This document shows positions 17,116 through 24,165 of a stretch of 40,017 nucleotides of DNA, in pieces; position 1 is the stretch's first letter; each line of letters starts with the position of its first letter. The DNA comes from Microcaldota archaeon. GTDB taxonomy: Archaea; Micrarchaeota; Micrarchaeia; Anstonellales; Anstonellaceae. The position numbers were made by a program, and so were the translations under genes. Location: assembly GCA_026413765.1 (NCBI GenBank), contig JAOAKI010000011.1:1-40017 (forward strand), read 5' to 3'. The notes beneath the pieces are model-generated. The model saw nothing but the letters and a program-made list of their open reading frames with translations. It had not been told where the DNA came from and did not search any database.

Positions 17116-18246
17116 ATGGTCGCGTTTGACATACGGAAAATAGCGCGCTCTTATAGAAAGCCATCGGTTGCTGTTCTTGGCTCTCATTCGGCACTCGACA
17201 TTGCTTCGGGCGCTTCCTCTTTTGGCATGAAAAGCATTGTCATTTGCCAGAAAGGAAGAGAGCAAACATACAAAAACTATTACGCAAAAAGAAAGACTCC
17301 TTTTGGGCAGGCAGGCTGCATAGACGAAATAATCGTCCTTGACAAATTTTCAGATGTCGCATCAAAGCAGACAGTCTCGGCGCTCGTCAAAAAGCAGGCA
17401 ATTTTTGTGCCCCACCGTTCTTTCTCTGTCTATGTAGGCTATGACTTGATAGAAAAAGAATTTGGCGTGCCAATCTTTGGCAACCGCATGCTTCTGCGCG
17501 CAGAAGAAAGGACGGCCGCCCGAAATCAGCAGTGGCTCCTCAGGCGCGCAGGCATACGAATACCAAAAGTCTTTTCTTCGCCAGAAGAGATAGACAGGAT
17601 GGTGATTGTCAAAGCCCCCGAGGCAAAGCGCAAATACGAGCGCGCATTTTTCATTGTCCATTCTGCTCACGAGTATCACCGCAAAAGCAAAGAGATGCTT
17701 TCAAGAGGGCTCATCAGCCGCGAAGGGCTCGAAAGCGCGCTGATCGAGGAGTTCGTCGTCGGCGCCCAATTCAATTTCAATTTCTTTTATTCCCCAATAA
17801 ACAGGCAGCTTGAATTCCTTGGCACCGACTTCAGGAGGCAGACTAACTTGGATGGGCTTTTGCGTCTGACTGCGCCTGAGCAGTCCGAAATCCTCAAGCT
17901 GACGCGCATGAAAAACATAGAGGTGGGGCACGTAGCCTGCACAATCCGCGAGTCGCTTCTTGAAAAAGTCTTTGAGATTGGCGAAAGGTTTGTAAAGGCA
18001 TGCAAAGAGGAATATCCTCCAGGCATTATTGGGCCGTTTGCCTTGCAAGGCGCAATCGTGCCGGCAGAAAGCGGCGAAGAGCCAGTGATTTTCGATGTCT
18101 CGTTCAGGGTTCCAGGTTCGCCGGGAATTCGATACACCCCATATACCTCTTACCTTTGGGGAAAAAGCCTCAGCGTCGGCGAGCGCATCGCGCTTGAGAT
18201 CAAGCAAGCAGCAAAAGAAGGCAAAATAGAAGAGATTGTGACGTGA
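17116..18246 (+). CDS. PurP paralog, divergent copy
   Basis: 376-residue member of the PurP (DUF1246 plus DUF1297) ATP-grasp family. Seen: N-terminal GSHSALDIASGASSFG, VICQKGREQTY, GNRMLLR, and C-terminal GPFALQGAIVP and FDVSFRVPGSPG. Where canonical PurP has the glycine-rich ATP loop (GAKGGRGY in the next gene), this copy has EAKRKYERAF, so ATP binding may be altered. The usual reaction of the family is formate- and ATP-dependent conversion of AICAR to FAICAR. It lies 4 nt before the canonical purP. It may be a partner subunit, an enzyme for another substrate, or a second FAICAR synthetase; I cannot tell which. Confidence 0.8.
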   Translation: MVAFDIRKIARSYRKPSVAVLGSHSALDIASGASSFGMKSIVICQKGREQTYKNYYAKRKTPFGQAGCIDEIIVLDKFSDVASKQTVSALVKKQAIFVPHRSFSVYVGYDLIEKEFGVPIFGNRMLLRAEERTAARNQQWLLRRAGIRIPKVFSSPEEIDRMVIVKAPEAKRKYERAFFIVHSAHEYHRKSKEMLSRGLISREGLESALIEEFVVGAQFNFNFFYSPINRQLEFLGTDFRRQTNLDGLLRLTAPEQSEILKLTRMKNIEVGHVACTIRESLLEKVFEIGERFVKACKEEYPPGIIGPFALQGAIVPAESGEEPVIFDVSFRVPGSPGIRYTPYTSYLWGKSLSVGERIALEIKQAAKEGKIEEIVT

Positions 18247-18250
18247 TTTT

Positions 18251-19300
18251 ATGGATGTGACAAAAGAAAAAATACTTGAAATACTTTCTGGCTACGACAA
18301 AAAGAAGCTCAAAATAGCAACAATTTGCTCGCATACTGCTTTGCAGATTTTTCACGGTGCAAGACTCGAAGGGATAAAGACAATAGGAATCTGCACTCCG
18401 AACAGGCAAAAAGTATATGAAGCATTCCCGCTTGGAAAGCCTGATGACTTTTTGATTGTCCAGGATTTGCGTGACATTCCTGAAAAAGAGCTGCAGGATG
18501 AGAACGCAATCCTTATCCCGCACGGCTCGCTGGTCGAATACACAGGGGACAAATTAGGAGAGCTTAAAGTCCCAATGCTTGGGAATCGAGAGAGCCTGAA
18601 ATGGGAGAAAGACAGAATGAAAATGTTCAAATGGCTGCAGGCTGCAGGCCTGCAAGTCCCTGCAGTCATCGACCCTGACAAAATTGACCGGCCATGCATC
18701 GTCAAGCTTGCGGGGGCAAAAGGCGGCAGAGGATACAAAGTCGTCTCAACACCAGAGCAATTCTATGAGCACTTTGAGGGTATGAACGTGATTGTCCAGG
18801 AGTATTTAATTGGCGTTCGCGCATATCCGCACTATTTCTATTCCCCGCTTTCACAAGATGGATTTAGAGCGCTTGAAGGACGAGTAGAGCTGATTGGAAT
18901 TGACAGGCGCTTTGAAAGCAATATCGATGAAGCATATCGGACAGAGCATGCCGGCCTTTCATTCTCACCCTCATTTACAGTCGTGGGAAATGAGCTTTTG
19001 GTCATGCGGGAATCTCTTATCGAAGACTTGCTTGAGATGGGCAAAAGCGTGGTGGAGGCAGCTGACCGCTTGTTTGGTGGCATCCCAGGGCCGTTCTGCC
19101 TGGAGACAGTGGTGGATGAGAATTTACAGTTCTATGTTTTTGAAGTCTCAGCAAGGATTGTGGCAGGAACTAATCTCTATCCATTAGGCTCTCCTTATAC
19201 AGTCTATCAATACAGCGAGCCTATGAGCATGGGCCGCAGGATCGCACGCGAGATAAAAATTGCAGCAAAGCAAGGCAAGCTTTCCAAGCTAGTTTTTTAG
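18251..19300 (+). CDS. purP: Formate-dependent FAICAR synthetase (IMP synthesis)
   Basis: Makes FAICAR from AICAR, formate and ATP, replacing the folate-dependent PurH transformylase in archaea. 349 residues. Seen: N-terminal CSHTALQIFHGARLEGIKT, ICTPNRQKVY, the loop IPHGSLVEY, GNRESLKWEKDR, the intact ATP-grasp glycine loop KLAGAKGGRGY, QEYLIGVRAYPHYF, IGIDRRFESNIDE, GPFCLE and the C-terminal FEVSARIVAGTN with metal ligands. It is translationally linked to the paralog upstream (4-nt gap, GTGA before the ATG). It converges with the small membrane protein gene by a 4-nt TTAG overlap. Confidence 0.94.
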   Translation: MDVTKEKILEILSGYDKKKLKIATICSHTALQIFHGARLEGIKTIGICTPNRQKVYEAFPLGKPDDFLIVQDLRDIPEKELQDENAILIPHGSLVEYTGDKLGELKVPMLGNRESLKWEKDRMKMFKWLQAAGLQVPAVIDPDKIDRPCIVKLAGAKGGRGYKVVSTPEQFYEHFEGMNVIVQEYLIGVRAYPHYFYSPLSQDGFRALEGRVELIGIDRRFESNIDEAYRTEHAGLSFSPSFTVVGNELLVMRESLIEDLLEMGKSVVEAADRLFGGIPGPFCLETVVDENLQFYVFEVSARIVAGTNLYPLGSPYTVYQYSEPMSMGRRIAREIKIAAKQGKLSKLVF

Positions 19301-19536
19301 CAGCTGCAATTTGCTCTCTCAAGCAGCTTTGTTATGCCTATGATGAGTACCAGCATTGGCCAGACATAAGAAAACTGGATACTCTCCAGATTCACCACTT
19401 TGAATACTTGAAGAATGCCTCCCAACCCAAGCACAACCAAAAGCATCTCCTCAATATAGCCTACTTTGCTTGTGCAGCAGCACTCTTTCTTTTCTTTTGG
19501 AAGAGGCGCTTTCTCCTTCTTTTTCTTTGCAGGCAT
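19297..19536 (-). CDS. Small cysteine-rich two-helix membrane protein
   Basis: 79 residues. Seen: a lysine-rich N-terminal tail (MPAKKKKEKAPLPKEKK), a triple cysteine ECCCTS, a first hydrophobic helix (MLLVVLGLGGILQVFKVV), a second (YVWPMLVLIIGITKLL), and the C-terminal ERANCSC. The positive N-terminal tail puts the N-terminus in the cytoplasm, so with two helices the CCC and CSC ends face the same side and could bind a metal or form disulfides. I know of similar short archaeal membrane proteins with terminal cysteines but no function. GGTGG lies 4 nt before the ATG and a TATA box at 19567-19576 precedes it. Confidence 0.65.
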   Translation of the reverse strand: MPAKKKKEKAPLPKEKKECCCTSKVGYIEEMLLVVLGLGGILQVFKVVNLESIQFSYVWPMLVLIIGITKLLERANCSC

Positions 19537-19566
19537 TCGACCACCAATATCGCTTCGCTTGACGGG

Positions 19567-19576
19567 TATATAATCC
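19567..19576 (-). promoter_or_regulatory. TATA box of the small membrane protein gene
   Basis: The minus strand reads ATTATATACC about 35 nt before the ATG at 19536, placing transcription start near 19545 and leaving a short leader with GGTGG. The tandem repeat array begins immediately upstream of this promoter. Confidence 0.5.
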
Positions 19577-19578
19577 TT

Positions 19579-19955
19579 TCCCTAGGGGGCACTAACTTTT
19601 CACTAGCTTCCCCCTAAGGGCTCACCCCCGAACGAAAAACCCAAGATTTTTTAGCACTAACTTTTCACTAGCTTCCCCCTAATGGTTCACTCCCTAGGGG
19701 GCACTAACTTTTCACTAGCTTCCCCCTAAGGGTTCACCCCCGAACGCAAGACACAAGATTTTTTAGCACTAGCTTATCACCAACTTCCCCCTGAGGGTTC
19801 ACCCCCGAACGAAAAACCCAAGATTTTTTAGCACTAAACTTCCATCAAATTTCTTCCTGAAAGCTTCACTTCTGAATGCAAGACACAAGATTTTGGCACT
19901 AGACGTTCACCAGCCTGAGGGTTCATCTCAAAGCGCACAACCAAAAATTTTTTTG
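19579..19955. repeat. 65-bp tandem repeat array, degenerating toward tRNA-Glu
   Basis: Unit starts (GCACTAACTTTTCACTAGCT and variants) lie at 19589, 19654, 19701, 19766, 19831 and 19896, with a remnant at 19956. Spacings are 65, 47, 65, 65, 65 and 60 nt. Units 1, 3 and 4 are nearly identical, unit 2 is truncated, and units 5-6 diverge. Each full unit contains CTTCCCCCTAAGGG, TTCACCCCCGAACG and an oligo-T tail (GATTTTTTAG). The second half alternates between GAACGAAAAACCC (units 1, 4) and GAACGCAAGACAC (units 3, 5). A 41-nt block starting CCCTAGGGGG is duplicated at 19580 and 19692. The period is not a multiple of 3, so it is not coding. The whole stretch 19537-19975 has no gene. Confidence 0.9.
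19581..19620. repeat. Inverted repeat within the array
   Basis: CCTAGGGGG (19581-19589) can pair with CCCCCTAAGGG (19610-19620), allowing one bulged base, around a 20-nt loop. The same arrangement recurs at 19692-19731. In transcripts or single-stranded DNA it would make a GC-rich stem. Confidence 0.6.
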
Positions 19956-19972
19956 GCAGTTGCAAAAAGAGG
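19941..19972 (-). terminator. A/T palindrome and T tract downstream of tRNA-Glu
   Basis: Read on the minus strand after the tRNA 3' end, CCTCTTTTT (19964-19972) is followed by the palindrome CCAAAAAAATTTTTGG (19941-19956). The first T tract is a plausible tRNA terminator; the palindrome may help or mark the decayed end of the repeat array. Confidence 0.4.
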
Positions 19973-19975
19973 AAG

Positions 19976-20089
19976 CGCTCCCACCGGGATTTGAACCCGG
20001 GTTAAAGCCTTGAGAGGGCTTCGTCCTTGACCGGCTTGCCCGGCAAAATAGCACACAGTCGTGCTAAGTCGCCACTAGACTATGGGAGC
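19976..20089 (-). tRNA. trnE(cuc): tRNA-Glu(CUC) with a D-loop intron
   Basis: 114-nt gene on the minus strand. Acceptor stem GCTCCCA (20089-20083) pairs with TGGGAGC (19983-19977), discriminator G at 19976, and CCA is not encoded. The anticodon arm AAGCC-CTCTCAA-GGCTT (20021-20005) gives anticodon CUC after U33, so it reads GAG codons. The T arm is CCGGG-TTCAAAT-CCCGG. The D stem is GTCT (20080-20077) with GGAC (20026-20023), but the D loop is 50 nt long because of an insert. Removing 20074-20036 leaves an 11-nt loop AGGCCGGTCAA, a normal archaeal form, and a 75-nt tRNA. A TATA-like TTTTATTGATT at 20111-20121 lies about 26 nt upstream. Confidence 0.92.
20036..20074 (-). other. Non-canonical tRNA intron (D-loop, after position 15)
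   Basis: 39 nt. A bulge-helix-bulge fits without forcing: the 4-bp central helix pairs D-stem bases 10-13 (GTCT, 20080-20077) with intron GGGC (20041-20038) using two G-U pairs. Bulge one is A14, G15 and the first intron base (20076-20074). The intron helix GGCGA/TTGCC (20073-20069 with 20046-20042) is extended, after a small internal loop, by TAGCAC/GTGCTA (20066-20061 with 20054-20049). Bulge two is the last two intron bases and the next exon base (20037-20035). Both cuts fall after the second bulge base, as in tRNA-Pro here. No outer helix is seen, so it is a relaxed motif. Confidence 0.8.
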
Positions 20090-24047: not shown

Positions 24048-24142
24048 GGGGGAATGGGCTAACCTGGTATGCTGCCAGCTTTGGGCCAGTGCCTTGCACT
24101 GCAAGAAAGCTGGTGATCTGAGTTCAAATCTCAGTTCCCCCA
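24048..24142 (+). tRNA. trnP(ugg): tRNA-Pro(UGG) with canonical intron
   Basis: 95-nt gene. Acceptor GGGGGAA (24048-24054) pairs with TTCCCCC (24135-24141), discriminator A 24142, CCA not encoded. The D arm has GG at 24066-24067. Anticodon stem CCAGC (24075-24079) pairs with GCTGG (24109-24113); the loop reads TTTGGG then A, giving anticodon UGG. T arm CTGAG-TTCAAAT-CTCAG. A 22-nt intron follows position 37. Mature length 73 nt. The dus gene begins 23 nt downstream without its own TATA box. Confidence 0.95.
24086..24107 (+). other. Canonical tRNA intron (37/38)
   Basis: 22 nt with a complete bulge-helix-bulge. Central helix TTTG (24080-24083) pairs with CAAG (24102-24105); bulge one GGC (24084-24086); inner stem CAGTGC/GCACTG (24087-24092 with 24096-24101) with a CTT loop; bulge two AAA (24106-24108). 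Cuts after the second bulge base release exactly this segment. Confidence 0.92.
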
Positions 24143-24165
24143 CTCTTGTGCTGCGGTGCTTTGCA

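Follow-up and report, generated by a model that had tools for sequence, protein, structure and literature searches.

The window analysed here is the whole of contig C12 (40,017 nucleotides) of genome G000, which is rated 100% complete (840,152 bases, 17 contigs) and is one of the ten genomes that the genome collection places in genus g1. On its minus strand, to which all coordinates of this gene refer, a tRNA-Glu(CUC) gene was read directly from the sequence between 20089 and 19976. In minus-strand order, its 5' part consists of GCTCCCA-TA-GTCT-AG, the intron TGGCGACTTAGCACGACTGTGTGCTATTTTGCCGGGCAA, and GCCGGTCAA-GGAC-G; its 3' part reads AAGCC-CTCTCAA-GGCTT-TAAC-CCGGG-TTCAAAT-CCCGG-TGGGAGC-G. 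The acceptor stem (GCTCCCA/TGGGAGC), the anticodon loop (CTCTCAA), the T-arm (CCGGG-TTCAAAT-CCCGG) and G73 (19976) are all present. The two strands of the D-stem (GTCT/GGAC) are nucleotides 10–13 (20077–20080) and 22–25 (20023–20026), which pair in the mature tRNA in the ARAGORN cloverleaf of the spliced sequence. The 5' exon (nucleotides 1–15, 20075–20089) contains GCTCCCATAGTCTAG, found with at most one mismatch in 10/10 genomes of the genus, and the 3' exon (19976–20035) extends from nucleotide 16 to G73, CCA not being encoded. A T run at 19964–19968, closely downstream, may serve as an archaeal terminator.

The 39-nt intron (20036–20074) lies in the D-loop, between nucleotides 15 and 16. 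The D-loop measures 50 nt with the intron and 11 nt (AGGCCGGTCAA) without it, and excision would convert the 114-nt unspliced form into a 75-nt tRNA-Glu that ARAGORN identifies as tRNA-Glu(ctc), the anticodon CUC being located at 20012–20014. The unspliced gene was missed by ARAGORN and by Rfam at the gathering threshold. The lone match to it in a whole-genome Rfam search scored 27.1 bits, below threshold, and had a wrong 5' half.

When the spliced sequence was used as a query, the genes of relatives were recovered whole in some genomes and, in the remaining ones, split precisely at query position 15, with a 100% match of the 3' exon at query positions 16–74. The D-loop intron of tRNA-Glu(CUC) is carried by 8/10 genomes of the genus (G000, G001, G002, G003, G004, G006, G007 and G008), always at 15/16 and with a length of 39–43 nt (41–43 nt in the seven congeners of G000). 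It is missing from the gene of G005 and G009, which belong to the same genus, and from those inspected in other genera and families. Genes without the intron have the sequence GTCTAG-CCCGGTCAA-GGAC, which is the predicted splice product; homologues equal to this product include those of G005, G009, G011, G015 and G029. Once the predicted intron is deleted, the first 40 nt of six congeners become identical to the G005 gene, and G007 shows identity with the same gene as far as GGAC. The window copy differs from the intron-free gene by one base, a G for C after the junction. An earlier note on this DNA had proposed a 39-nt intron with cuts after 20075 and after 20036 that restore an 11-nt loop. 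Since the intron-free orthologues show precisely this junction, they confirm the proposal and fix the splice site independently of it; together with the presence of the intron in eight of the ten genomes, this argues against a chance arrangement. Additional introns were seen in the same tRNA of some congeners: the G002 gene (L204) has three, in the D-loop, the anticodon loop and, a short one, in the T-loop, the G001 gene (L203) apparently has three as well, and the G007 gene (L208) has introns in the D-loop and T-loop.

The unconstrained minimum free energy (MFE) fold of the precursor contains exactly the proposed bulge-helix-bulge (BHB) motif (z = −3.5 against shuffles, whole precursor), including the central helix on D-stem bases 10–13 that had been drawn from the sequence in the earlier note. 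In this fold GUCU (10–13) pairs with the intron strand GGGC (20038–20041), AG^U and AA^G occupy the two bulges, and GGCGA (20069–20073) pairs with UUGCC (TTGCC, 20042–20046) in an intron-side helix spanning 20042–20073 around an internal hairpin, TAGCAC-GACTGT-GTGCTA (20049–20066). The geometry is that of a BHB, i.e. a 3-nt bulge, a 4-bp helix and a 3-nt bulge, the cut site following the second nucleotide of each bulge; the outer exon helix is weak and not clear, so the motif is best classed as a relaxed BHB. Comparison with the congeners also points to the GGGC strand, which in these genomes is GGAC, the same letters as the D-stem 3' strand. Among the eight carriers, 5/6 pairs of the hairpin have changed on both sides, paired cells amount to 95.2%, and the covariation score was reached by 0/500 shuffles; these counts were made on a hairpin-only alignment, as the full MAFFT alignment had the hairpin out of place. 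The compensating intron pairing that had been suggested as a check in related genomes is found among the eight carriers. The 3' end of the intron (GCCGGGCAA) resembles the following exon (GCCGGTCAA); an origin by duplication was considered on this ground and rejected, since the BHB constraint explains most of the resemblance.

Since the central helix has an invariant exon strand within tRNA-Glu, covariation of this helix was examined by including other tRNAs that carry introns at 15/16. The same site and geometry are found in 3/3 tRNA-Val genes of G000, where Val(UAC) reads GTCG-AA^A...CGGC-AA^T and Val(CAC) reads GTGG-AA^A...CCAC-TA^T, and the intron-free tRNA-Val genes of G002, G005, G012, G016 and G031 have GTCGAATGGTTAAGAC or a close variant, as predicted. 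Introns at 15/16 are also present in tRNA-Asp(GUC) of other families (G027, G057, G079 and others), with GTGT paired to ACAC, GCAC or GCGC. This gene is intron-free in G038, G052 and G064, and the tRNA-Asp introns of G048 and G053 have no clean motif at their end. Across the Glu, Val and Asp introns, 92.5% of central-helix cells are paired, 7 changed on both sides, and the score was reached by 0/500 shuffles; the alignment was assembled by hand from 8-mers at the loci and its rows are partly related, so that these counts are supportive rather than independent. Compensatory changes, seen in the hairpin and, when different tRNA species are compared, in the central helix, indicate that the base pairing is under selection.

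Within the genus, the 3' ends of the Val and Glu introns are alike (GCAAGCCG(G)ACAA), and a tRNA-Val gene lies directly upstream of tRNA-Glu(CUC) in several genomes; the introns of the different tRNAs may share a common ancestor or have separate origins, as the likeness of the 3' ends could come from a shared motif. A broader scenario, which we offer tentatively and think somewhat unlikely as a whole, is that 15/16 is a preferred site in Micrarchaeota on which the Glu, Val and Asp introns landed separately or between whose genes they moved, and that each intron would act as a built-in folding switch, with a copy-like imitation of the D-stem's 3' strand followed by AA, keeping the tRNA in its pre-tRNA shape and allowing the D-arm only after cutting.

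The same intron might be cut one or two bases away from the proposed sites, which would give a D-loop such as AGTCCGGTCAA or AGTGGTCAA. Both variants yield acceptable cloverleaves with ARAGORN, and the D-loops AGTCCGG and AGTGG do occur in tRNA-Glu of other families. However, shifted cuts would not have the 3-nt bulge, 4-bp helix and 3-nt bulge placed at the cut sites, and the intron-free genes of the genus and family never show the corresponding D-loops, all of them having AGCCCGGTC(A)A or AGCCCGGTAA. We consider such a shift very improbable.

Nucleotides 10–13 cannot pair with both of their partners, and the BHB and D-stem forms are therefore mutually exclusive. Fold energies were computed at 37 °C, without proteins or modifications, for precursors containing the D-loop intron only. 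The BHB is ahead by 1.2–1.4 kcal/mol in G000, G002, G003, G006 and G008, the two forms are about level in G007, and the D-stem fold is better by 1.7 kcal/mol in G001 and by 1.4 kcal/mol in G004. MFE folding of the mature tRNA was uninformative, giving a D-stem probability of only ~0.4 even for intron-free sequences. The earlier note had stated that the precursor "cannot form the normal D arm until it is cut". The mutual exclusion holds, but an absolute block does not, and with forms lying ~1.5 kcal/mol apart this wording is too strong. On these modelled energies, the pre-tRNA would be best described as a near-balanced switch in which the two forms compete. As the D-stem is itself part of the splice motif, splicing and D-arm folding are coupled.

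One full splicing endonuclease (EndA) was found in the genome, a 397-aa protein encoded on contig C10. Its residues 8–397 align to the epsilon EndA of ARMAN-2 (PDB 4fz2; E = 1e-130), and its length and alignment fit a fused three-unit chain of about 390 aa. The catalytic residues Y236, H251 and K282, the RNA-gripping residues R275 and W384 and the residues Y160 and K161 of the ARMAN-specific loop (ASL) are all kept in the alignment; the roles of these residues have been described (PMC12397907), and enzymes of the epsilon2 type cleave relaxed motifs (PMC6379350). The protein is 78% identical to the EndA of Candidatus Micrarchaeota archaeon SKW29 and SKW311. By its sequence, then, it is an epsilon2 (ARMAN-2 type) splicing endonuclease. 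A broad-specificity enzyme had been anticipated from the intron position, with the advice to verify its type, and an epsilon2 EndA with all functional residues, those of the ASL included, supports this at the sequence level. The gene for the ligase RtcB is also present. A second EndA-like protein of 190 aa is encoded at L032:1462-2034 on the minus strand (G000:C10, about 19244-19813); it keeps the catalytic Tyr, and His and Lys are lost. This paralogue occurs throughout the genus, ~9–14 kb from EndA where both are on the same contig, with weaker matches beyond the genus, and may act as a structural partner to the epsilon2 EndA.

These elements can be assembled into a mechanism, whose enzymatic part is drawn, beyond sequence and structure, from established work on this enzyme family. 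In the precursor, nucleotides 10–13 would pair with four bases at the 3' end of the intron instead of with 22–25, so that the two bulges would hold A14 G15^U and AA^G. Both bulges would be cut by the genome's own epsilon2-type EndA and the exons joined by RtcB, leaving nucleotides 10–13 free to form the normal D-stem.

The long D-loop could also be retained in the mature tRNA as an expansion segment rather than removed as an intron, and in every genome a D-stem fold in which the insert forms an extended arm is indeed within ~1.7 kcal/mol of the BHB. Against this, the tRNA is used by congeners in a form that has no insert, both ends show BHB signals, the genome encodes both EndA and RtcB, and tRNA-Val and tRNA-Asp carry introns at the same site, also with intron-free orthologues; we find a retained insert scarcely credible.

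The tRNA inventory was compiled from Rfam, pattern and DNA searches and fetched stretches, and is not claimed to be complete. Rfam, pattern and DNA searches of the genome recovered no second tRNA-Glu(CUC) gene, so that the intact second copy named in the earlier note as grounds for refutation was looked for genome-wide and not found. The tRNA-Glu(UUC) gene is separate, on contig C8, and has a canonical anticodon-loop intron and the D-loop AGCCCGGTCAA. GAG accounts for 186/360 Glu codons in ten ORFs of the window. That the gene is a decayed or disrupted copy, the true tRNA-Glu(CUC) being located elsewhere, would fit its being missed by standard tRNA finders, but all stems are intact, the insert is conserved with compensatory changes in eight genomes, and with GAG in use and this the sole CUC gene detected, a pseudogene is untenable.

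We thus put at about 0.94 the probability that this locus is a functional tRNA-Glu(CUC) gene with a BHB intron at 15/16 that is cut by the epsilon2 EndA and joined by RtcB. The intron, its splice product in orthologues, the conserved and covarying pairing and the genes for enzyme and ligase can all be read in the genomes; from these we infer that cutting and joining take place in the cell.

In a tree built from concatenated PurL, EndA and EndA-like paralogue sequences, G000 is sister to the rest of the genus, the intron-free G005 groups with G007 (100/100) and the intron-free G009 with G004 and G001 (91/86); deep branches inside the genus are modestly supported (88/76, 60/61). Single-protein trees of EndA and of the EndA-like paralogue did not resolve the genus; most of it was resolved once PurL was added. 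Since the outgroups do not have the intron, the concatenated tree suggests, as the simplest history, a single gain on the genus stem and two precise, clean losses. The gene neighbourhood was also compared. The tRNA-Glu(CUC) gene is near purL and convergent with it in five genomes (G002, G003, G006, G007 and G008), and in G000 it follows purL-purQ, sharing their strand. Two tandem DUF1246/DUF1297 proteins with PurP-like domains are encoded on the plus strand of the window (17116–18246 and 18251–19300), among purine-biosynthesis genes, together with purQ and purL. A tRNA-Pro(GGG) gene with an anticodon-loop intron (24048–24143, plus strand) lies immediately upstream of the region where purL starts, on the opposite strand.

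A tandem repeat array (19579–19837; period about 65, or 112) was noted beside the tRNA-Glu(CUC) gene. Its family counts ~26 copies genome-wide, many of them beside tRNA-Val or inside T-loop introns, and few in congeners. In L038 (G000:C7:32116), L040 (C3:97), L036 (C7:11701) and L039 (C1:137352), the T-loop is apparently interrupted after GGTTCAAA by long introns containing the repeat TAGGGGGCACTAAACTGACACAAGCTTCCCCCTGAGGGCTCACCCCCGAA, which belongs to the same family as the array; of these four, only L038 and L040 showed the end of the 3' exon. Apparent T-loop introns are also present in L028, L035, L041 and L042 of G000, the last two with an anticodon-loop intron in addition. The end of contig C1 (137,593; L039) is CTGTCTCTTATACACATCT, which resembles a Nextera transposon adapter that was not removed during assembly, and a tRNA-containing stretch is shared between this contig end and the start of C3.

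D-arm introns in tRNA-Glu have precedents. The earlier note had ascribed introns outside 37/38 mainly to Thermoproteales and a few other lineages; D-loop introns are not chiefly a matter of Thermoproteales, as both tRNA-Glu of Methanopyrus kandleri and of Sulfolobus tokodaii have D-arm introns. In M. kandleri, D-loop introns occur in both isoacceptors, with RNA-Seq reads that support them and show late removal, and they accompany a canonical intron, unlike the case described here (PMC3695527); the M. kandleri enzyme differs as well, being an (alpha-beta)2 form without specific loops (PMC6379350). In S. tokodaii, D-arm intron borders of tRNA-Glu(UUC) and tRNA-Glu(CUC) were mapped with recombinant EndA. 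The tRNA, the arm and the BHB-type cut between the second and third bulge nucleotides are the same as here, but the border in Glu(UUC) is at ~nucleotides 22–25 of the transcript rather than 15/16, and the intron is ~16 nt long (PMC4307357). ARMAN-2 belongs to the same phylum and has the same enzyme type, with functional residues that are all conserved here. Its epsilon2 EndA cleaves relaxed-BHB introns, but the tested substrates named in the parts consulted are pre-tRNA-Ile(UAU) and pre-tRNA-Cys(GCA), and a 15/16 D-loop intron is not described there (PMC12397907, PMC4033280). In tRNA-Ile(UAU) of Cyanidioschyzon merolae, BHB-type introns are found in the D-, anticodon- and T-arm of one tRNA, and the D-arm intron (12/13) breaks the D-stem as here, in a eukaryote (a red alga), at another position and with another enzyme (PMC9602550). 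A review gives 20/21, 22/23, 25/26 and others as non-canonical positions, in a list ending with "etc." (PMC4090602). The 15/16 site is not named in that review and was not found in the literature searched, which covers the key literature incompletely. The chemistry and the enzyme class are thus already known, and the present intron is a variant of them whose 15/16 site and sharing of the D-stem were not found described.

Most descriptions of non-canonical tRNA introns concern Thermoproteota, M. kandleri and Nanoarchaeum, joined recently by Asgard archaea. Here, a DPANN genus has a non-canonical intron whose site recurs in three tRNA species (Glu, Val and Asp). Its presence in some close DPANN relatives and clean absence from others provide a natural test of gain and loss and of splice-site prediction. 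All these introns are testable with one recombinant enzyme, of which a close relative has a crystal structure with RNA. Finally, this gene illustrates that tRNAs needed by Micrarchaeota escape standard tRNA finders.
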